A stretch of DNA of 64,000 nucleotides from Atriophallophorus winterbourni (taxonomy: Eukaryota; Platyhelminthes; Trematoda; Plagiorchiida; Microphallidae), in the NCBI GenBank assembly GCA_013407085.1, contig JACCGJ010001390.1, positions 62,001 through 126,000 of the forward strand, given 5' to 3'. A program made the translations under genes and the position numbers. Below are positions 2,039 through 64,000 of the stretch, piece by piece (position 1 is the first letter of the stretch; each line of letters opens with the position of its first letter). The notes under the pieces were generated by a model. That model had not been told where the DNA came from. It saw nothing but the letters and a program-made list of their open reading frames with translations, and ran no database searches.

Positions 2039-2385
2039 TTTACTCATTTAAACGTCGATTGAATATCGTTTATAGTGCGGTAGTAATTATTGGGGGTATG
2101 AAGTGCCGGTAAAATCTCGGTTCGCATTTAGTTTCTGTTCATCATTTTTTCATTCTTCATTGTTAGTAAAGCGCGTGCAATTTGTCGATTTTGTATTCAT
2201 TCGTTTGAAGCTACGGTACTTTTCCTTGCTACGTTATCACTGTGTTCAATGTATAGCCATCGATGATAAGTCATTACCAATTATGCGGTGCAATGTCAAT
2301 CCTCTTTTATGTAATGACTTAGATGCAATTTCTCAAACTAAAACATTTTGGTCGAACCCGGGATTGTATTTAGACTTTCGCCCTT
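2039..2385 (+). other. 3' flank of p38 exon, probable 3' UTR
   Basis: No credible coding frame. It directly follows the p38 stop codon and runs into the TACA microsatellite, so it is probably transcribed 3' UTR. No convincing polyadenylation signal was picked out before the repeat. Confidence 0.4.
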
Positions 2386-2582
2386 ACATACGTGGACACA
2401 CACATATACATACATGCATACATACATACATACATACATACATACATACATACATACATACATACATACATACATACATACATACATACATACATACATA
2501 CATACATACATACATACATACATACATACATACATACATACATACATACATACATAAATACATACATACATACATACATACA

Positions 2583-2616
<34 letters not shown>

Positions 2617-2638
2617 CATAAGTACATACATACATACA

Positions 2639-2672
<34 letters not shown>

Positions 2673-3010
2673 CATACGTACATACACACATATATACATA
2701 CCTACATACATACATACATACATACATACATACATACATACATACATACATACATACATACATACATACATGCATACATACATACATACATACATACATA
2801 CACACACATGTATACATACCAGCATACATACATACATACCAGCATACATACATACATGCATACTTACATACATACATACCAGCATACATACCTCCATACG
2901 TACATGCATACATACATACATGCATACATACATACATACATACATACCAGCATACGCACATACATGCATACATACATACATACTTACACGGATGCTTACA
3001 TACGTTGCTA
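2386..3010. repeat. (TACA)n / (TGTA)n microsatellite, about 600 bp
   Basis: A nearly uninterrupted tetranucleotide array from about 2408 to 2805. It then becomes an interrupted section in which CATACATAC blocks are punctuated by CCAG and TGCA variants up to about 3000. Because 4-nt repeats read in all frames without stops, it produces long spurious open frames on both strands (IHTY and MYVC repeats). These are not genes. Confidence 0.98.
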
Positions 3011-4554
3011 CGTACCTATGCACATACGCGCACTTGAATTGAAATGAAGACGTATGCATACCGATCATTTTACGACAACTGGAGTCAACTCTAATCGCTA
3101 GCCTGTATCAATAATTCGTAAACACAAAACTTCCTGGTTGTATTGCCTTTTATTAATTGGGTTTTTCAATGCTAATTGTTTTAATCTCGCTTGTAACCGG
3201 GCCTTGTTCTTCTTCTTCTCCTTCTTCAGGCCAGGTGTGGTCTATCCTTGAAAATTTTACTCCACCCCAGAACAATCAGAGTTTCACTAACGCATCGTAG
3301 CATTCATCTGTCGATTGCTTCGGTTTCTGTGTTCTCTTGGAAATTCCGATGACAAAGTGAACAATGGTTACCTTATTTTTGATTCACTTCACCCATTTTA
3401 GATACATGAACCATCGAATTTACGACTCCCTCAGTTCTTTGTTTTCTTTTTATTCCTCATTGTACTTTTCACATTAGGATACATCATTTTAAAGGTGAAT
3501 TGTGAATATAATTGATTATTTGATCAACTGACAATCTTTGTGTTTAATATAATGTTCATTTTCATCATCTTCTCACATTTTTTCATCGGCGAGCATCGAG
3601 CCACTAATTTTGTCGAGTGAAGGAGCCCAATGTTTCGATCGAATAGTAGATTAAAAATTGAGATTTGGCTAGTCCGTTGTGAGGTGGGTAGGGATTGCCG
3701 TTGAGAATCTTATTAATAAGTTGATCACAGGAAGAAGCGTTATGCTTCATTCTAATTTGCAACATGATTTCGAAGGAGATTGAATTTGCACACAAATAAT
3801 TTTGATGCAACGATTTATTAGCACAACATATTTCGGCATGAGTGCGAGAGAACAGTAGAAAATGTGATGTGAGATACAGGAGAGGGTGAAGCAAGAAGTG
3901 CCTAACGCCAAGCGATATGAAGGAACGCGTGTAAAGAATGCCTATGCACTTTCGTGAACATGCAAATAAGATGACAAGTTATCGGAAATGGTCACTACTA
4001 AATAACTGACTTTTTCCTAAGCTATGTACATTTGATTAATTTGCGTCATAGCTGTGTTTCGAACTATCAGCAATCGTGCGATTCTCGACAAATCGAGGTT
4101 ATCGGTTTGGCAATCCATAGCGCGCAGACGTTTATTCGCATTGAATTGACACTATAAAGACTGATGCTTTGCTTTACTTTTGATTTGGTGACTTATTTTT
4201 AGTTATACTGAATAATTTATTGTCAACTTGTAAGCAGAGATGGCTAGACTGTTACGTGTAATTAATGCTTGCACTCCCAAACTCTAGACAGTTGGTCAAG
4301 TGAATAGTTTAGTAATTTGCGCACACTATCTTGTTCACAACGTTTTACTAGCAAGTTATTTGATCCATTTTATTTCGGACTTGATATCTGCAGTTAATGC
4401 TCTGTTTCCACTGTGCTAAGCCCCTGTGCAACCTGCTCTTTCAATACGTGTGCAACGCCAGTAGAATGTTAAAGCAAACAAAACGAAATCGAAAAGTGGA
4501 TTACATTGGTTTGATGGAAACAATGGCGATTTCGATTAACATAATATACATTTC
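3011..4554. other. Non-coding stretch
   Basis: AT-rich sequence with short pyrimidine-rich runs (cttcttcttcttctcc near 3209). Open frames are short and unlike known proteins. Nothing assignable was seen. Confidence 0.4.
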
Positions 4555-5252
4555 AGTGATCCGGACTCGCATCGCACAACCCTGACAGATTACATCATCA
4601 GCATTATACATTTCAATTCTAAATATGTCCCGAAACATAATAGCAAAGTAACTCACTTCAGAATTCGCAGTCGCACTAGAAAATGGTTGACAAAGCGAAA
4701 TTTAGCATGGGCTATTCGCAGGGTCACCAGAACAGAATCGACCTGGGCAAACTTTCGCGAATTGCTGAATCAAGTCAGAAATCTCATCCGGGAGGATAAA
4801 CACTATCACCATCTTCAGGGGGCAGTGAGAATGCAGCGAAATCCCAAACTGATTTATCAAACCGTTAACAACACTACGAAGCTGAAATCCGATGTTTTTC
4901 CGATCATGACAGGTAACGGACTAACTGATTCTGGGCTGGAAACCGCTAACGCTCTCGTCACTCCGAAGGATATATTAAATCCATCGGAATTGTCAGCATC
5001 AATTGTGCCGGAGACTTTATGTGATATATGCATCAATTCTGAAATAGTGCAACACCACCTACGCAGGTTGAATATCAGCAAGTCCTCGAGAGCTGACGGA
5101 ATAAGACCTGCGATCCTAAAGTTATGCGGCATTAAATTATGCGAACCACTTTGTGATTTATTTAATCACTGTTTGAGGAGGGGTGTTGTACCGACTGACT
5201 GGAAGAGAGGAATGATATGACATTCAACATACGGAAAAGTAAGATGCTTTAC
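4555..5252 (+). pseudogene. LINE (family 1) EN-RT linker and N-terminal RT, left half of a split copy
   Basis: An open frame from about 4555 to 5220 encodes the linker between endonuclease and reverse transcriptase of a CR1/Jockey-type non-LTR retrotransposon, then the start of the RT. Visible are the linker block NPKLIYQTVNNTTKLKSDVF, the LRRLNISKSSRADGIRPAILK block (RT motif 1 region, usually K.PGPDGI.P..LK) and LFNHCLRRGVVPTDWKRG. After a stop the reading jumps to NIRKSKM, a block that in related copies lies about 200 residues further on. So the palm core with its catalytic aspartates was deleted. The frame is then cut by a PLE at 5253. Inactive. Confidence 0.85.
5240..5252. repeat. Target-site duplication, left copy (13 bp)
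   Basis: taagatgctttac occurs here and again at 6253-6265, exactly flanking the Penelope-like insertion. Removing one copy and the insert rejoins the LINE reading frame (KSKM block into the YLLKNFPW block). Confidence 0.85.
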
Positions 5253-5292
5253 TAATGCAAAGGAATTTGTGTGCAATCGGTTAGAGTAGTTT

Positions 5293-5337
5293 TTGGGTAA
5301 CGTTTCACTTCTAACACAGAAGCTTCGTCAGACCAAG
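5293..5337 (-). ncRNA. Hammerhead ribozyme motif in left PLE arm
   Basis: Read on the minus strand: box CTGACGA (5331-5325), a helix II of CTTCTG/TAGAAG (one G-U pair), then GAAAC (5306-5302) followed by GTT. All conserved hammerhead core bases (CUGANGA, GAA, A15.1, U16.1, H17) are present. Helix III is reduced to the palindrome ACGT, as in the minimal type I hammerheads known from PLEs, which are thought to act as dimers. Helix I can pair TTGGT with ACCCAA. Confidence 0.7.
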
Positions 5338-5338
5338 G

Positions 5339-5755
5339 GTGATAGTCAGGACAGGGAACATGATTAGAATCTTGAACCAGGCGGCCATACGCGTAACTTA
5401 TAAGAAATGGAAAACTATCCATTCGGTTCTGATGCACCTCAAGGATAAGACGCCTTTATCTAGCGTTATGAACAGCATCTACAGAATCAACTGTAAGGAC
5501 TGTTCGAGTGTTTACATAGGGCAGACTTCCAGGGAAATTCACACTAGAATCGGAGAACAACGAAAGCGTGTCCGGAGAAAGACCCGGGATGCGAGGGAAT
5601 ATCAATCCCTTATTCGTGATTCCGCCTTGGCGGAGCACGTTTTAGATAAGAGCCACAGCGTCGATTTAGACAATGTGGCAATATTGAGACGCGGTATTAA
5701 ACCGTATAGCGAACGCCTACATACGGAGGCGGTCGAAATTGCCAAGGCAGGCTGA
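5339..5755 (+). CDS. PLE GIY-YIG endonuclease domain (partial ORF)
   Basis: This is the C-terminal nuclease module of a Penelope-like retrotransposon, which nicks target DNA so that the element's RT can prime. The sequence shows the GIY-YIG equivalent: a YRINCKDCSSVYIGQTSR block (about residues 48-65, C.DC knuckle followed by YIGQT), then R and IGEQRKRVRR, and a downstream SALAEHVLDKSHSVD block (usually S..A.H....H.(I/F)(D/N)), ending in ERLHTEAVEIAKAG. The upstream RT is missing, and the first 25 or so residues run through the inverted terminal arm, so the apparent start is not a natural one. A stop follows the last block; in family relatives the frame continues with LEVNK. The nuclease core looks uninterrupted, but the element as a whole is defective. 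Confidence 0.85.
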   Translation: MIVRTGNMIRILNQAAIRVTYKKWKTIHSVLMHLKDKTPLSSVMNSIYRINCKDCSSVYIGQTSREIHTRIGEQRKRVRRKTRDAREYQSLIRDSALAEHVLDKSHSVDLDNVAILRRGIKPYSERLHTEAVEIAKAG

Positions 5756-6128
5756 CTGGAGGTCAATAAGGTGGATGGGGCAGAAATCTCCACAATCTGG
5801 CGCTCGGCACTGATGCGAAAGTAAAGAGTTTTTAGTCACCTTATACCTACTAGTTAATTAAATTTTTGTTTTTCTTCAAAAATAGCCTTAGCCCCGTTAG
5901 TTATGTACTTATACGTATGTGGGCAGCTGTGTCAACTGACCTTGACCGTGTTCACTTGTATCAGATTGTTTTGGATAAACACTGTGAGAAAAATGGACCA
6001 CTGATCCTCGTAATTCCCACGAGACCTGACACACTGTAGACGTACTATAGGCTGTTTAGTGGTAAGGTCAAATAAGTAGTGGTGGGTTGACTCCTACTTA
6101 ATCATGTTCCCTGTCCTGACTATCACCC

Positions 6129-6175
6129 TTGGTCTGACGAAGCTTCTGTGTCAGAAGTGAAACGTTACCCAAAAA
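6129..6175 (+). ncRNA. Hammerhead ribozyme motif in right PLE arm
   Basis: Plus strand: CTGACGA at 6134-6140, helix II CTTCTG/CAGAAG with loop TGT, GAAAC at 6159-6163, then GTTACCC. Core bases are all intact. Helix III is the minimal self-complementary ACGT, the cleavage triplet would be GTT, and ACCCAA can pair with TTGGT to form helix I. It is the mirror image of the motif in the left arm. Confidence 0.72.
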
Positions 6176-6252
6176 CTACTCTAACCGATTGCACACAAAT
6201 TCCTTTGCATTCTGAATACACGATCGGTCCCAAACATATTCAAATCGATTGC

Positions 6253-7010
6253 TAAGATGCTTTACCTTCTCAAGAATTTTCCTTGGACATATCGATTGGG
6301 AACTGAAAACTTGGCATGGAGCTATTTGGAAAAAGATCTTGGATTATGGATTAGTGGAAACCTAAAGAGCACGGTGCACTACCAGAATATATATCGACAG
6401 GCCAAAAGATTGTTAGGTATCTTTCGAAGAATATTTAGAAGATTGTCGCTGGTAACCTTACCAATCATAATCAACGTCTACATTCGCCCTACGATGGAGT
6501 ATGCGGTAGAGGTTTGGTCTCCTTGGCTGCGAAAATATATTGCTCTCTTTGATAAAATCTATCACAAAGCAACAAATTTAGTGATGGGTCTTCGCAATGT
6601 TCCGTACACCGAAAGATTGTGACATCCGGGTCCATGTGACTTTACGCAAAGGAGGTAACGGCGCAATATTATTCTGGCCTATAGAATCTTCCATCCACTT
6701 AAACACTGGCTTGATGTGTGTGATGAAAAATGACACGCGGACATACCTTATCAATTTACGTCCCAAGTTCCCGTATTGATTATTTATCGGCGCCATTTTT
6801 CGCCGTACGTGCTATATTTCTTTGCAATTCCCTACCCCAACATTTGGTGAACTCTACTTGCCTGGCGGTGTTTAAAGCGAAATCGGAATTGTACATGCAA
6901 ATGAACATCATTCATGAGCCTTGCGTTTAATATTCTCTATTCCTTTTATACTATTACATTTTTTCACATTTTCGTTCATATCCTATTCCTGTGGTGTTGT
7001 AAAGTATTAA
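6253..7010 (+). pseudogene. LINE (family 1) RT thumb and C-terminus, right half of split copy
   Basis: This continues the LINE interrupted by the PLE. The first frame (6257-6622) has the blocks LEKDLGLWISGNLK, RRIFRRLSLVTLP, YIRPTMEYAVEVWSPWLRKYI and NVPYTERL, the typical post-palm thumb of CR1/Jockey-type RTs. Frameshifts then split the rest (about 6730-6930), which ends in CNSLPQHLVNSTCLAVFKAK, the C-terminal WNSLP...FK.KL block of this family. A short AT-rich 3' UTR follows. It starts with the right copy of the target duplication (6253-6265). Confidence 0.85.
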
Positions 7011-10847: not shown

Positions 10848-11732
10848 TTAATCGTTTGGGGCAACATTCGGATTAGCACTCATATAATCGTCAAGTTTTG
10901 ATTTTAATATAGATAAACTGTTTGAGCTTACCAAGTCAGCAGGTAGGGAATTACAAACAAAGCACACACGTACTGAATAAAAAGACCTGCGGCAGTTCCG
11001 TTTGGAATATGGTATTTCCAACTTGCAACCATGACCACGGATGTTGCTGGAAGTTCGTAGGTGGAATAATATGTCCAGGCGGTGGGAAACAGTATTAAGT
11101 ATTTTGTATGCGAGGATGAGATCACATCGCATTCTTCTTTGTGTAAGTGTCCTCAGCTCCAGTCGTCTGAGTCGCCAGGCGAAGGGCGTATTTTCGAGCC
11201 CAATGACCAGCTTAGAAGCTCTCTGGTCTATGCGATCCAGAAGTAAGATGTCTTTTTGGAGCCATGGTGTCCAGGCTTGTGCGGCATAGTCTAGAACCGG
11301 GTGTATATATGTATTCATCATGAGTGGAAAACACTCCGGGGAAAAACTTTCAAATATCCGCCGTAACATGTCAAGCAGCCGAGACGCGCTTTTCTTCTTC
11401 GGCGTACTCCAGGTTTGTATCGCTGAGCTTGTATTGATAGAAAGGCCAGGGTTACGTCCGATCTGAATCATCTTCGACTTTTGCATATTCAATGACAGTT
11501 TATTTTGGGATGACCAATGGTACAAAGCATTCAAATCATTTTGCTGCAAAATACAATCGTCAGCATTTCTGATTCGCCTCCATACTTTTATATAGACAGC
11601 AAACAAAACCATCTTACTATCATTTGGTATTGGTATATCGTTCATATAGCCTAGAAACAGTATTGGTCCAAGCACTGCGCCTTGTGGAACACCGCTAGTG
11701 ACATCGATGTTCTTCGATAATGGGCCGTCCAC
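10848..11732 (-). pseudogene. LINE family 1 reverse transcriptase, motif B to C-terminus
   Basis: 294-residue open frame, the longest retroelement frame in the window. Order: motif B (TSGVPQGAVLGPILF), the mutated catalytic box (MVLFAVYIKVWR where relatives have MFADDIKIWKR), the NKLSLNMQKSKM block, the thumb block (YIHPVLDYAAQAWTPWLQKDI), LENTPFAWRLRRLELRTLTQRRMRCDLILAYKIL, and the C-terminal block with YSVRVCFVCNSLPADL. It cannot be an active polymerase because the two metal-binding aspartates are replaced by V and Y. Confidence 0.88.
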
Positions 11733-13915: not shown

Positions 13916-15019
13916 TTAAATTGAATTATCATCTTTAAAAATCCGGTAAGAAATATGCTGGAAATAAAAAAACAGCGTCGCTTAGTCTGATTTAAAATTA
14001 TTCTGTGACATGTTGTAGAAAACGCATTCTTATACCCTACCATGTAAAGCCATTTCCATTTACGCTACGTAATTAACGCTTTTATGAAAAAATTATTTAA
14101 TTGTGTTTCATTACAACAGTTTCATGATTGAGCTTCCAAACATTATTTCACCAAACATATAGAGAGGGAATATTAAGGTATTTCGTTGAGTAAGAAACTT
14201 TCTTGCATGGGTTTTACTGCATATTGCAGTACTACTTACAATAGGGTCCACAATTTCAAATTTTCATTAACCTATAATAGTGGTAGAAAGATGCTCAATA
14301 TGTTCCGAGTGTCTAATTAGTTTTTAGCTTTTCAATGAAAAGCCTTTGTATCAGCAATGGTATGTTTTAAATATTCTCACATAAAAAGGTGGTCGGGGGA
14401 AAGTGAAAACATATAATGAACTAAACACATAATCAATGTATAATCTGAGCAACGCCATTGGGACATCATTTCCTTATAAACCAATGAAAACATTTCTAAA
14501 ATGATTGGATGATTTCCATCAAAATTGTCGGACGAATACGAGCGATATTTATTTCTTTATGTAATGCGCTTGAGGGCAAAATGTTTTTCGACCAAGTGAA
14601 CGTAATTGTACATGATAACTATTAACGAAATGGAGAAGTATGTCGTTTATTCACATTTTTCAGTAATATTAATTTATCAGTTTGGATCTAGTTTATTTTT
14701 AGATTTAATTATTGATTGATTATTAACAAATTTTGTTGCCATGTAAAATATCTAAAGCTTGAATGCTCAGAATATTCATCTAACTAGCTAGGCCTGGATA
14801 ACTTGGGCTATCTTATCGGAAATCAATTTGGTCAGACTTAGAAACATTATTACTTCACTTCGAAATACAATGTGGAAGACAATAACTTAGAATGAATTTT
14901 ATATAATTCATAGAACGGAGATCGTTTCAAACTACTGGAGTCGTCACAAGACCCGAAAGCTTCTCGGTTTGGGAGAAAGTGCGGTAAACAAAGTAAGTTT
15001 AAAATCAATTTTTTATTTG
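13916..15019. other. Non-coding AT-rich stretch
   Basis: No recognised gene or repeat. Confidence 0.4.
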
Positions 15020-15130
15020 TTTCAAGACATGTGGATCCTAATCGTACAATCCTTGTCTGATGAGTACGAACAGCAAGAAAACGGTTGTGGGGTGTGCGTG
15101 ATTGAAATGCATGCAAAAATAAAATTTTCA
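15020..15130 (+). repeat. Retrozyme-like repeat with decayed hammerhead
   Basis: Starts near ttcaagacatgtggatccta. The hammerhead box CTGATGAG is at 15057-15064, helix II is weakened (GTAC with GCAA), GAAAA is at 15077-15081, and the unit ends with gaaatgcatgcaaa. Homologous to the dimer at 16808. Confidence 0.7.
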
Positions 15131-15749
15131 TTATTTTCCAATTTAAAATCTAAAATTTTATTACATTTTCAAATTATAATCTCGAATATTATAAAGAGTA
15201 TAGAGGAATTTCATATTCAGATATTCACAAATTGCTTCAAGTAATTTTGTGGTTGATTTAAATATAATTAATTGAATTTTTCCGGGTTGTTTTATAATGA
15301 TTTCTAATAAAATGATACCCTATTATTTTTTGTCAGAAATTCAAATACATATTGTATTAAAATCGAAGTTTATTCGATAATTTTACCCAGGAAAATCTCA
15401 CAAGCGAACGTTTTATTTCTTTTGCTGAAAATCTCAAAAGGTTTACTAGTCCTTAGAGAAAATTTCCTTGTGTACGTTTCTTATTCAATCACAGTTAAGC
15501 ATTCAGGGACGCAATAAATAAGCATATTTCAGGCAGTTTAATACTTTGCGGTTTTCTAGCATTTTGCCCGTTGTGTTCATTACTGACATGCGGAATTCTC
15601 GTAATTTTTCCCAACCATGTATAATGTTGACAACTCGATATGAACAAATGTCGAATTTGACTGTTAAGTCATTTAGGGTTCGATGGATGAATTGTTCACT
15701 GTTGCATTACAACAAAATTAATAATTAATACAACTCTGCATAACATTCT

Positions 15750-15850
15750 GTATTCAAGCGCATGCGGATCCTGATCATACTGTTCCTACGTGATGAGTGC
15801 AAACAGCAGGAAACCGGTCGTGTGTGTGATGGAAATGCATACGAATGAGT
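15750..15850 (+). repeat. Retrozyme-like repeat with near-intact hammerhead
   Basis: Unit 3' half: caagcgcatgcggatcctga, then GTGATGA (15790-15796; core C3 changed to G), helix II GTGC/GCAG with loop AAACA, GAAAC (15810-15814), two loop bases CG, then the cleavage triplet GTC (15817-15819). Only the first core base and the helix II closing pair deviate from a canonical hammerhead. Confidence 0.75.
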
Positions 15851-16807
15851 TTTTGTTCTGTGTTATTATTTTAAATAACGATAATTGATACAAAATACAA
15901 ATTCGACTGTAGTTGAAAACGACAGATAAATTACGTCCTCAAGTACGTAGGGTCAATATTATCCTTGCTAACAGATGACAGTTGGCAAGGTAAAATGACC
16001 TCCTTATAATGCCTCCGATACTTTGTCCTACACTGCGTTGTTCTCAAATTTACGGATGTACTGCAACTAGACAACATTTTGCTTTTGATCGTGTCTTGCT
16101 TGGCTGAGACAATTTCGAAAGACAAGTAGTATTGCTTTTATTACGCACGTGCTGTATACAGCAAATTACATCTTTATAGTCACCCGTGGTTGCAGTAGAC
16201 GCTGAATACAAAATACTTGTCAGATGCTATGATAATCCATTTCAATAGTTTGACTTTCCTGTCAAAATAGGTTCTTTTAATTAGGATTGCGAAGTTTGTT
16301 CGTGGATATATTCAAGCAGTATGCATTTCTGTTGTCTGATTTAAATATGCCAATGTGAATACCATCAACTGCGTAATAGCTCGTGGTACATTTTATTTTT
16401 ATCAATTTACGAATTCTATCCTATGAATTATAGGATGTGAATGACAAAGGTGGTCAAATTTTCATTAGAAAAATTACTCTACATCGCCAGACTCTTAAGG
16501 CGAAAACTAGATTGTTAATCAAACCGAATAGGTCTTTTGATTTTGACATTTTTTCTAACTATCACAAAGATTTGTGGGATAAAATGGTTGTGCAATAAAA
16601 GTTCTCACAGTTTCAGTTGCAAGAATATTTTGTGAGTCAGATTTATTATGGTCGGGCGACAAGCTCTCCCTCAATCTCACCTTGAACATGAAACCATGAA
16701 TCGATGGTGTTGTTGTAAGTATTCATTCACACGATTCACTGAAAACCTCCAACAAACGAAGGAGAAAAACGAATTTCGCATTCGGGCAAATAAACGAATA
16801 CCTAAAC
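15851..16807. other. Non-coding stretch
   Basis: A minus-strand frame at 15931-16125 is open but unrecognised. No repeat seen. Confidence 0.4.
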
Positions 16808-16888
16808 TACACTCAAGGGAGCATACAAGCGCTACTTGTTTACCATTTCTCCACGGTTTCAAGCGCATGCGGATCCTGATATTACTCT

Positions 16889-16930
16889 CCCTACCTGATG
16901 TGTGCAAACAGCACGAAACCGATCGTGGGG
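16889..16930 (+). ncRNA. Hammerhead ribozyme motif, unit 1 of dimer
   Basis: CTGATGT (16895-16901; core A9 changed to T), perfect helix II GTGC/GCAC with loop AAACA, GAAAC (16915-16919), loop CG, triplet ATC, then GTGG, which can pair with the preceding CTAC for helix I. The A9 change probably impairs cleavage. Confidence 0.75.
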
Positions 16931-17120
16931 TGTGTGATGGAAACGCATGCAAATGAGTATTTGAGTTGATGGTTATGGGTTTAACCCCATTAAACATGTG
17001 TTTGGACACATGTGATTGAACAGGTCGGTCGTACGAGCCTTATCCAACAGTGGTATACAAGCGCTACTTGTTTACCATTTCTCAACTGTTTTAAGCGCAT
17101 GCGCATCCCTCTCTTACTGT

Positions 17121-17166
17121 CTCTACCTGATGACTGCAAACAGCACGAAACCGATCGTGGTGTGTA
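17121..17166 (+). ncRNA. Hammerhead ribozyme motif, unit 2 of dimer
   Basis: CTGATGA (17127-17133), helix II TGC/GCA closed by a C-C mismatch, loop AAACA, GAAAC (17147-17151), loop CG and triplet ATC followed by GTGG. All conserved core bases are present; helix III is minimal (A-U plus a C-A mismatch). It is the retrozyme hammerhead in this window with the best preserved core. Confidence 0.78.
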
Positions 17167-17210
17167 TGTGATGGAAATGCATGCAAATGAGTATTTGGGT
17201 ACACTCAAGG

Positions 17211-28429: not shown

Positions 28430-28760
28430 AAGTTCACTATTTGTCAAACAATTATGTACGGTTTCAAGGCATAGTGATCCTGATCGCATTGTCCATACCT
28501 GGTGAATGGAAACGGTAGGTAACCGAACCAATTGTGTTATGAATTTACATGGAAATATTGACATTTTGTAAACGGATACTACAATGTAAAATAAGCTACA
28601 ATATTTGCGGATGTAATATTTTAACACACTTGGATTTTAACTGGTTGGAACATGGTTTGCAACTGAAATTTCAACCACTAAATGCAACTTTATCTCCGTC
28701 TGATGAGGTCATGCAGCCAGAAACCAGTTGTGGATTAGAGAGATTTATAGATTGCTCGAT
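28430..28760 (+). repeat. Two decayed retrozyme units in tandem
   Basis: The first unit reads ggtttcaaggcatagtgatcctga and a changed box CTGGTGA at 28499. The second has CTGATGA at 28700-28706, GAAAC near 28719 and the triplet GTT, followed by GTGG. Spacing is about 201 bp, consistent with a shrunken dimer of the element at 16808. Confidence 0.6.
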
Positions 28761-29751: not shown

Positions 29752-29890
29752 ATTTCAATTAAACATACACACCTCACGACTGGGATCGTGCTGTTTGCAC
29801 TCATTAGGTTGTAACAGTAGGATCAGAATCTGTATGCGCTTGAATCAGTGGAAGAATGGAAAACAAGTCGCGCTTGTATGCCACTATTTC
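29752..29890 (-). repeat. Retrozyme-like repeat with near-intact hammerhead
   Basis: The minus strand runs from a tacaagcgcgacttgttttc block (29882-29863) through gattcaagcgcatacagatt, box CTAATGA (29807-29801; core G5 changed to A), perfect helix II GTGC/GCAC with loop AAACA, GATCC in place of GAAAC, and triplet GTC (29780-29778). It lies just downstream of the membrane-protein exon. Confidence 0.72.
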
Positions 29891-48299: not shown

Positions 48300-48510
48300 T
48301 TTCAGCGAGTATTCCCAGAATTCCAACGAATCACTATGTGATTCCGTGTTTGAACATCGTAGTTCGTTGTACGAACCTCATGCAACAGTGGCATTCAAGT
48401 ATAACTTTTTTACCACTTATCCACTGTTTCAAGGCTCACTTAAGCTAATCTTACTGTCTCCACCTGATGACGGCAAACAGCCAGATACCGGTAGTGTGTA
48501 AGTGCGGGGA
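48300..48510 (+). repeat. Retrozyme-like repeat, nearly complete monomer
   Basis: Contains the full unit order: cactatgtgattccgtg, tttgaacatcgtagttcgtt, gtacgaacctcatgcaacag, tttttaccacttatccactg and the hammerhead: CTGATGA (48464-48470), helix II core, GATAC for GAAAC (48484-48488), loop CG, triplet GTA (48491-48493), GTG. One core base (A14 or A13) is changed. It helps define the unit as about 200-230 bp. Confidence 0.75.
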
Positions 48511-51744: not shown

Positions 51745-51812
51745 CTTCAAGCGCATGCGGATCCTGATCCTACTGTCCCTACCTGATGAGTGCAAACGGC
51801 AAGCAAACAGCG
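51745..51812 (+). repeat. Retrozyme-like repeat, truncated within the hammerhead
   Basis: cttcaagcgcatgcggatcc, then CTGATGA (51783-51789) with helix II GTGC/GCAA. Homology ends shortly after a C insertion breaks the GAAAC box, at about 51810. Confidence 0.7.
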
Positions 51813-56959: not shown

Positions 56960-57560
56960 CGCTTTGTTAGATTGTGAGAAGTCTTGATTTTGTCAACCAA
57001 ATATCGAGCGAGGAAAAGGCCAAAAGAATTTTTGATATTTTTAACTTCTTAAAAGGAGACAAGATTTTTGTTTTTAGGATTTATAAAGATAGGATAGCTC
57101 ACCTAAATCTGCGTGACTTTCCCTTACGAAGAATCAGAGGAGAACTTATCCTACTTTGCAAAATATTCCATACCCCACCATTTCTTTCGGCCTATTTACG
57201 TGAACGGATACGCGGAATTATCGGGCCCATGATAGTACGTTGGTGGCACTCAATTTCCGCCTAAACTGTAGAAAGTATTTTTATTCTATTGCATTGTGGT
57301 GCTCATATCCCCATCCCTTACACACCACTGCCGGTTTCTGGCTGTTTGAGGTCATCAGTTGGAGACAGTAAGATCACTTTCAGTGAGCCTTTTAGTCTGT
57401 TCGTGTCTATTTTACTTGAAATAGTTTGCCTTCTACCGTACTCACTCCACCAGCTTGCATAAGTTTAAAACGAAATTAGAAGAGCTTTTATTGAATTCGT
57501 TTCCAGGCTACTTACATACTACTTAAACTAATTACTTAAATTTTATTTTTTACCACCCTA
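56960..57560 (+). pseudogene. LINE family 1 C-terminal fragment split by a retrozyme
   Basis: The 56974-57264 frame reads HLNLRDFPLRRIRGELILLC and KIFHTPPFLSAYLRERIRG, the post-thumb block. After the insert at 57288-57389 it resumes with SVRVYFT, a stop, and NSLPSTVLTPPACISL, equivalent to YSVRVCFTWNSLPSTV of the copy at 60549-60731. Confidence 0.8.
57288..57389 (-). mobile_element. Retrozyme-like insert inside a LINE
   Basis: Splits the LINE exactly between blocks contiguous in the copy at 60549-60731. Candidate 9-bp direct repeats flank it (ttttattct 57279-57287, ttttagtct 57390-57398; one mismatch). On the minus strand the hammerhead box CTGATGA is at 57358-57352 and GAAAC at 57338-57334, with loop CG; the cleavage triplet reads GCA, so it is probably inactive. 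Confidence 0.7.
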
Positions 57561-60034: not shown

Positions 60035-60145
60035 GTATTACCTTCAAGCACGGTTACGTGCTGGTTACACTCGTCAGGTAGGGAGAGTACGATCAGGATC
60101 TACATGTTTGGAAACTACGTAGAAACGGTGAACAATGTTTTAACT
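60035..60145 (-). repeat. Retrozyme-like repeat with changed hammerhead
   Basis: The minus strand has agatcctgatcgtactctcc, box CTGACGA (60077-60071), helix II GTGT/GCAC, GTAAC in place of GAAAC and no acceptable cleavage triplet. Orientation is opposite to the dimer. Confidence 0.65.
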
Positions 60146-63379: not shown

Positions 63380-64000
63380 GGTGTCCCACAAGGTTCGGTA
63401 CTTGGTCCGGTTCTCGTTTTAGTCTACATCACCGACCTTACGAAACTTGTCACAGCCAAAATGGTTCTCTGCGGATGAACTTAAACGTTGGATGCGAATC
63501 ATGTCAAGCGTGGACGGTTTGTGCTTACAATGCGATGTGAACATATTGAACAGCCGGTCAGAGCGAAGCAAGCTTCCATTCAACTTCATAAAGTGCAAAA
63601 TGTTGCAAATAGGTACAGATTTCCCATTCTCATACAACCTTGGATCAGAACAACTGGAATGGACAACAAAAGAAAAGGACCTCGGTGTATGGATTAGTGG
63701 AAGTCTTAAGAATAGCATGCAATGCGAATCAGTGTACGACCGAGCTAGCCGCTTACTAAGTATGCTTCACCGTATTTTCGGCCCTTTTTCCCGTGAAACG
63801 TTCCCCATACTCATAAATACGTATATTAACCCAGTGATGGATTACTCAGGCAAGCTTGGGCACCATGGTTACCAAAGGACATCAAGCTGATCGAGTGGAT
63901 TTATCACAGAGCAACTAAACTGGTTGGCTGTCTCTGCAACCTACCATATGATAATTGACTCGTGCAACTAAATTTGGATACAATGCCTCACAGACTGGTT
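63380..64000 (+). mobile_element. LINE family 1, RT palm to thumb, running off the window
   Basis: GVPQGSVLGPVLVLVYITDL (motif B, 63385-63440), then a decayed catalytic box (FSADELKRWMRIMS where relatives have FADDIK.W), SKLPFNFIKCKMLQIG, KEKDLGVWISGSLKNSM, MLHRIFGPFSRETFPILINT, YINPVMDY and, after a frameshift near 63850, AWAPWLPKDIKLIEWIYHRA. The copy continues past 64000. The 63447-63890 frame (147 residues) is its longest intact stretch. Confidence 0.88.

Follow-up and report, generated by a model that had tools for sequence, protein, structure and literature searches.

An old, probably inactive animal-type retrozyme insertion and a proposed Penelope-type cycle for the copying of its family

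Results

The window element

The window analysed here is a 64-kb stretch of contig C1224 from a 537-Mb assembly; its features are on the forward strand unless stated otherwise. At positions 16819–17199 lies a 381-bp element bracketed by exact copies of the 11-bp sequence TACACTCAAGG (16808–16818 and 17200–17210). These are the only two copies in the window; shuffled sequences are expected to contain 0.05, and none of 100 shuffled windows had the sequence twice. The initial annotation, which had placed this target-site duplication at both ends of the element, was correct in this regard. It had also described two units about 232 bp apart, and such units are present: the first copy occupies 16819–17050 (232 bp) and is followed head to tail by a second at 17051–17199 (149 bp), as judged from the spacing and from the alignment of the two, in which copy 1 was taken as 16819–17049. 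The copies share a 114-nt block at a spacing of 232 (88% identity) and a 37-nt block at a spacing of 234 (92% identity). The term “dimer” holds for the head-to-tail arrangement but not for the length, as the second copy is incomplete and the element amounts to about 1.64 units. Its GC content is 45.4%. Eight open reading frames (ORFs) overlap it, each of only 25–110 amino acids; as had been proposed, the element encodes no evident protein.

Positions within the unit are given here as phases: phase 1 is the first nucleotide after the predicted cut (GTC), and the reference is a real 233-nt unit from locus L028. The window element starts at about phase 127–130, and its 3′ terminus (17185–17199) is at the site that we call A, the commonest 3′ end in the family.

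Both units contain a hammerhead core, as claimed, and the cores are of type I. Covariance-model scoring, which had been suggested as a check, detects the two with the Rfam model Hammerhead_1 at 16889–16930 (24.5 bits, E = 0.0014; predicted cut after 16924, between GATC and GTGG) and at 17121–17167 (14.5 bits, E = 2.8; predicted cut after 17156), but neither alone reaches the gathering score of 34. Both motifs are degenerate. Copy 1 has CTGATGT in place of CTGATGA; copy 2 lacks the first pair of helix II (ACTGC/GCAC) and has a mismatch in helix I; and both have CCGATC where CCGGTC is expected, which, read from the sequence, places a C–A mismatch in helix III and gives a cleavage triplet of ATC vs. 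GTC in the family. The altered positions (CTGATGA, the helix II pair, and CCGGTC) matter for cleavage.

How old is this insertion? Of 147 aligned sites, the units have the same base at 129 and differ at 18 (12.2%). Relative to a typical unit, copy 1 carries 15 derived changes and copy 2 carries 20, with eight common to both (hypergeometric P = 1e-4); because these eight are shared, the two units stem from one template that already had them. If the units started out identical, each would have changed by about 6% since insertion. The sole complete unit is 10.9% from the family majority, compared with a mean of 3.8% for 223 units. The insertion had been regarded as recent enough to have kept its target duplication; given the divergence between the units, the distance from the majority and the degeneracy of both hammerheads, we reject a recent insertion. 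By its sequence, the copy is old, partly decayed, and probably inactive.

Eight more pieces of the family, with identities of 75–96%, are found in the window, at 15018–15117, 15748–15857, 28458–28525, 29764–29888, 48366–48496, 51746–51801, 57320–57376 and 60051–60106. Five of the eight start at phase 162–175 and resemble short fragments around the hammerhead. The piece at 15748–15857 is a second, shorter member that runs from phase 163 to site A, with 86% identity to the reference unit and a weak flanking repeat of 6 bp (TTCTGT). Elsewhere, positions 660–1659 are 1,000 N, making ORFs that read through them meaningless, and 2103–3068 appears, by its ORF translations only, to be a simple repeat (ORFs of 172–232 amino acids on both strands). 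Four ORFs resemble retrotransposon relics (4687–5220, 6257–6622, 10848–11732 and 63447–63890). The Pfam family RVT_1 was matched by 10848–11732 (E = 3.1e-6) at 27.5 bits vs. a cut-off of 29.6; a Pfam search of the other three returned no match.

The family in the genome

An exact 25-nt core of the unit, CTGATGAGTGCAAACAGCACGAAAC, occurs 4,367 times in the genome (2,072 + 2,295), and its reversed control is absent. When 40 of 8,691 first-look candidates were scored in a similarity search with the unit, there were at least 134 matches, many of them in tandem at about 233 bp. Family members are dispersed and range from less than one 233-nt unit, as many are, to arrays of more than 16. From 38 of 39 loci we cut 223 complete units, with a mean GC content of 45.6%, in keeping with the value below 45–50% that characterizes animal non-LTR retrozymes; 136 of them contain the exact 30-nt core CTGATGAGTGCAAACAGCACGAAACCGGTC. 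With this core, helix III consists of an A–U and a C–G pair around a CG loop, within the palindrome ACCGGT. For axolotl retrozymes whose helix III is weak, cleavage is better in dimers, and by analogy the same may apply here. When one unit is folded as a circle, site A falls within a hairpin loop directly beyond the ribozyme stem and B, the second 3′ end described below, at the foot of another hairpin, both features being weak (z = −1.57); the fold z-scores were modest (−2.15 and −1.57).

In 20 of 40 loci of the family, Rfam gave 59 Hammerhead_1 matches at E ≤ 0.05; the commonest score was 32.9, and three exceeded the gathering score of 34. The family displays further hallmarks of animal non-LTR retrozymes: a type I hammerhead in each unit, a unit length (233 nt) within 150–450 bp with dimers to multimers, and target duplications longer than 4 bp. 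The initial annotation had viewed the element as one of a retrozyme family of this genome, and had held that a lack of other dimers and sub-threshold scores in every copy would speak against it. With thousands of copies, many further multimers and three units above the Rfam cut-off, the family assignment stands. Four pairs of contigs (L041/L052, L045/L046, L048/L049 and L050/L051) are 96–99% identical over nearly the whole stretch; both haplotypes may thus remain in the assembly, and the copy counts may be inflated.

Do the units of an array share a template? In multi-unit arrays (at least two units), 62 non-majority columns were shared by all units of their array, vs. a mean of 5.55 and a maximum of 17 when labels were shuffled. 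Five two-unit arrays contributed 43 of these variants and the ten units of L040 another 13; no fixed private variant was present in 17 of the 19 arrays of at least five units, the exceptions being L035 and L040. Identity within and between arrays (0.958 vs. 0.944) fails by itself to separate them, but the count of shared variants does so. The fixed variants fit repeated copying around one circle; a multimeric transcript, local duplication, or growth after insertion could also give such unity. The arrays L012 (10.2 units, cut by the contig end) and L033 (4.3 units) have a common 3′ flank, so a single insertion may be present in differing array lengths, on allelic or duplicated contigs.

Ends of the insertions

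In the 38 loci picked by similarity, we scored 40 3′ ends: 26 were at site A, 11 at site B, and three elsewhere (a relic of 72% identity, L036, and L040, which on inspection is at A). Site A (phase 34–50) terminates immediately after AATATTTTG, 42 nt past the predicted cut; site B (phase 136–157) terminates after CCTTG(TT), 147–149 nt past it. The 5′ ends of the same loci, by contrast, fell into these intervals no more often than expected (7 of 41 vs. 6.9). The intervals were defined post hoc, once the ends were known, and the binomial P (1e-25) is therefore indicative only. A further 26 loci, found via the A pattern, provided 39 ends, with 22 at A, seven at B, and ten elsewhere; seven of the ten belong to pieces of at most 81% identity, and the outlying ends of L064 (27), L068 (32) and L073 (54) are near A.

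The tetranucleotide TTGT occurs in the reference unit only at 40 and 145, which correspond to A and B. Across the genome, 861 terminal patterns of A and 188 of B are not followed by the unit’s next base, T; some of these are internal variants, and reversed controls gave none. All 30 loci fetched, of the 861, with the 3′-terminal 20-mer were retrozyme copies, and none was the end of a LINE. We considered priming at a 3′ end made by the hammerhead and rejected it, as the ends are 42 or 147–149 nt past the cut. Many copies begin at phase 155–171 or 129–132, on either side of the hairpin with site B, as if reverse transcription had stalled there.

Head-to-head composites

Some insertions have two arms in opposite orientation. 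We pooled 68 loci (38 found by similarity, 26 via the A pattern and four via the core) and scored 14 such composites. All 14 were head to head and paired an A end on one arm with a B end on the other, using windows of 25–55 for A and 135–158 for B; the loosest ends were those of L035 (136), L064 (27), L068 (32) and L032 (35). In L058, L062, L072 and L075 (the last via its twin, L076), the B end alone constitutes the test, because the A end was used in finding them. Another composite, L019, came to light only at a laxer cut-off: its inverted arm (939–969; 31 nt, 87% identity) ends at phase 123, at neither A nor B, and a flanking repeat was looked for at this locus and none was found. With L019 included, 15 of 15 composites are head to head and 14 of 15 are of the A/B type. 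A seed search for more short inverted arms on both sides of the elements at the 68 loci yielded only loci already counted. Among 100 core places listed of the 4,367, opposite neighbours within 1 kb were in the minus–plus (head-to-head) order six times and in the plus–minus order once.

Exact repeats of 9–15 bp bracket ten of the 14 composites. For simple elements (at least 85% identity, both ends scorable), 15 of 38 had a repeat, or 14 of 38 once L015, whose repeat is part of the unit itself, is set aside. In a control with the ends displaced by 300 nt, a repeat was seen once in 62.

The arms of the composites mostly join at differing phases, e.g., 65/41, 62/6 and 130/182, and most of the junctions are thus not simple foldbacks. 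Rfam reported microRNA families at L006 (1391–1466), L022 (1092–1219) and L035 (1471–1572), with up to 45.7 bits and below gathering. As they are placed on head-to-head junctions, we take these matches for foldback artefacts; junctions that mimic microRNA precursors in this way are a trap for annotation pipelines.

Penelope-like elements of the same genome

The window also contains a Penelope-like element (PLE) at 5253–6252, which appears to be placed between the ORFs at 4687–5220 and 6257–6622. It is flanked by a 13-bp target duplication, TAAGATGCTTTAC (5240–5252 and 6253–6265), and includes a relic of a GIY-YIG endonuclease at 5339–5755 (PF01541, E = 6.6e-4; 20.4 bits, below the cut-off of 22.6). 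Its inverted arm extends from 5253 to a site 1, which matches 6211, while its main arm ends at a site 2 (6252). A minimal hammerhead-like motif at 6134–6166, with a predicted cut after 6166, is unreported by Rfam at gathering; published work, including the available part of one report (PMC11167929), treats minimal motifs of this kind as hammerheads. Sites 1 and 2 are 45 and 86 nt downstream of the predicted cut.

Other copies have the same architecture. With 40 of 1,533 candidates scored in a genome search, at least 39 further main arms end at query 192–200 (window 6251–6259). A reading of the window PLE in which both arms end at 6211 was rejected, since these 39 copies extend to about 6252. 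Contigs C7782 and C10399 have inverted pieces ending at query 152 (6211), and C6729 has one ending at query 135. The C7782 and C10399 loci (L096 and L097) have one arm per site, with flanking repeats, identified by eye, of 12–15 and 9 bp. The two-site build is therefore present in all three PLE composites read.

A PF01541 search located 17 further PLE loci, five of which have hammerhead-like motifs in a loose motif scan. A second PLE family has its ends 43 nt past the motif in L047 and L050/L051; in L057 and L048/L049, the common sequence reaches to about +76. The arms of L042 end near these +43 and +76 points, with no direct repeat visible by eye; inverted arms are also present in L043 and L054–L056. 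Six PLE loci searched with Rfam at E up to 5 gave no hammerhead, which would not be surprising for minimal forms. No sequence similarity was detected between the retrozyme and the 17 PLE loci. The distance from the predicted cut to the end of the arm is 42 nt for retrozyme site A vs. 45 and 43 nt for site 1 of the PLEs, a comparison that covers two PLE families only and leaves B unmatched. The composites share a design of two arms set head to head, each with a fixed 3′ end of its own, inside one target duplication: 14 of 15 retrozyme composites (ten of the A/B type with flanking repeats, L019 being the exception) and three of three PLE composites are of this form.

Discussion

Non-LTR retrozymes of animals, their size, their multimers, and their long target duplications are already known. 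The present family resembles those that Cervera and de la Peña described in 2020 (PMC7229834), as far as the available part of that account goes, in having a type I hammerhead per unit, a unit length (233 nt) within the range of 170–400 nt (220–245 in coral, 233 in jellyfish), forms from dimers to large multimers, a GC content below 50%, no coding capacity and target duplications longer than 4 bp. It differs in its 2-bp helix III stem, derived from the palindrome ACCGGT. The same part of that account is without the fixed internal 3′ ends, the two start sites, and the A/B composites reported here. In the literature that we covered, which is partial, we found no published account of fixed start sites in animal retrozymes, or of a two-site head-to-head retrozyme insertion matched to the PLEs of its host. 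The LTR retrozymes of plants (PMC4918200) are likewise non-coding hammerhead dimers, but those in the portion of the report at hand have type III hammerheads and 4-bp duplications and are several hundred nucleotides longer; with its 9–15 bp duplications and type I ribozyme, the family is not of this plant type. The Sm-alpha and W36.2 repeats of schistosomes (PMC8490949) are also short, in some cases dispersed, and endowed with type I hammerheads; in the available part of that work they are 335 bp long and called SINE-like, and an analysis of fixed ends was not found there.

Which machinery copied the family? That copying proceeds by target-primed synthesis from fixed internal sites in the RNA, on both strands of the target, is well supported by the ends, the composites, and the flanking repeats. 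As for the enzyme, we lean towards one of PLE type. The retrozyme has only ORFs of 25–110 amino acids and lacks PLE similarity, whereas PLEs encode a reverse transcriptase and a GIY-YIG endonuclease; the two have no detectable sequence in common. Their scars are nonetheless alike. In the Poseidon-type PLE of Anolis (PAc; PMC11167929) and Penelope of the rotifer Adineta (PMC3846280), going by the parts of these reports available to us, a hammerhead is upstream of an internal reverse transcription start, there are two start sites, both strands are cut and extended, and head-to-head inverted arms with an optional tail on one arm are flanked by duplications of 9–10 bp. Purified PAc protein itself cleaves and extends the two target strands and begins its cDNA within the RNA, and the sequence separating the two start sites makes up the genomic tail of PLEs (PMC11167929, available part). 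The commonest PAc start is 111–118 nt into the ORF and the ribozyme cut is at +26 (same source); by subtraction, the start is 85–92 nt past the cut, close to site 2 of the window PLE at 86. In Adineta, inverted pseudo-LTRs (pLTRs) stand head to head with an optional tail on one and duplications of 9–10 bp, and the pLTRs suffice for the mobilization of a foreign gene in trans, according to the available text (PMC3846280). The 2020 description of animal retrozymes, in the part at hand, left the mobilizing enzyme and the form of the RNA open and named PLEs as a strong candidate (PMC7229834).

Several observations oppose this assignment. Besides the arm of L019 at phase 123, which runs against the A/B pairing, the distance between the first and second sites is 105 nt in the retrozyme and 41 nt in the PLE of the window. 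For PAc, according to the available part of the report, the start sites on the two strands were not seen to differ; moreover, hammerhead mutants insert normally there, and unprocessed RNA is held to be the main substrate (PMC11167929). No cross-mobilization was observed between the two PLE types of the rotifer, as far as the account at hand extends (Arkhipova 2013, PMC3846280).

The most serious competitor to a PLE-type enzyme, though an unlikely one, is the machinery of LINEs, in which target-primed reverse transcription combined with twin priming of the L1 kind would give 5′ inversions and duplications of 9–15 bp. LINEs likewise produce inversions and duplications, and in twin priming the inverted arm should begin at scattered internal points. 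Variable 5′ ends, fixed 3′ ends, 9–15 bp repeats and the reverse transcriptase relic in the window (RVT_1, E = 3.1e-6) all agree with such an origin, and Nematostella repeats with 15-bp duplications have been compared to LINE mobilization in the literature. However, one arm at each of two fixed sites is observed in 14 of 15 composites, the same build recurs in the three PLE composites read, and the terminal 20-mer led to retrozymes at 30 of 30 loci (of 861) and to no LINE end. Still less probable is that the composites arose from a single cDNA by self-priming or template jumping, as has been proposed for Penelope palindromes; the available text on Adineta Penelope does invoke self-priming on an antisense template (PMC3846280), but different fixed outer ends are not predicted by it, and the differing join positions argue against simple foldbacks. 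We find it very improbable that the family is pseudo-LTR debris of PLEs with no retrozyme of its own: the composite build is shared and the spacing from hammerhead to 3′ end is similar, but there is no similarity to the 17 PLE loci, and the units of multi-unit arrays abut directly, with no space for an ORF. Finally, a satellite DNA propagated through unequal exchange and carrying its hammerheads as passengers, which the long arrays of 233-bp units and the unequal arrays of L012 and L033 on one 3′ flank might recall, is scarcely credible and was rejected in view of dispersed copies often shorter than one unit, fixed 3′ ends, and flanking repeats around 14 of 38 simple and ten of 14 composite insertions; array growth after insertion may still occur.

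Returning to PLE-type copying, the following cycle can be proposed. Multimeric transcripts would cleave themselves at their hammerheads, and the monomers would be closed into circles; we propose that this cleavage precedes copying, and a circular RNA is the likely template. A Penelope-type enzyme would then cut the target with a stagger, consistent with the 9–15 bp repeats around many copies, and cDNA would begin inside the circle at either fixed UUGU site, as the 3′ ends at A and B suggest, rather than at the end made by the ribozyme. Several rounds of the circle could yield arrays of 1.6 to more than 16 units with scattered 5′ ends. Where priming took place on both strands of the break, with A used for one and B for the other, the cDNAs would join head to head, a course compatible with 14 of the 15 composites; for the window copy, site A alone would have been used. 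The window feature is likely to be an old copy, probably no longer active, of a non-LTR retrozyme of the animal type, inserted through the proposed Penelope-type cycle.

More tentatively, and as something we would not yet bet on, animal retrozymes could be satellites of PLEs. The hammerhead fold and the hairpin downstream of it would serve as a handle for a dimeric PLE reverse transcriptase-endonuclease, which would take up the circular RNA, start one cDNA from each of the two UUGU sites, one on either strand of a staggered break, and copy round and round. One can treat the insertion scars as traces of the reaction that tell where the cDNA began, which strands were used, and how the ends were joined. 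In this genome, the scars of the retrozyme resemble those of its own PLEs, and they offer a test for any genome that bears retrozymes.
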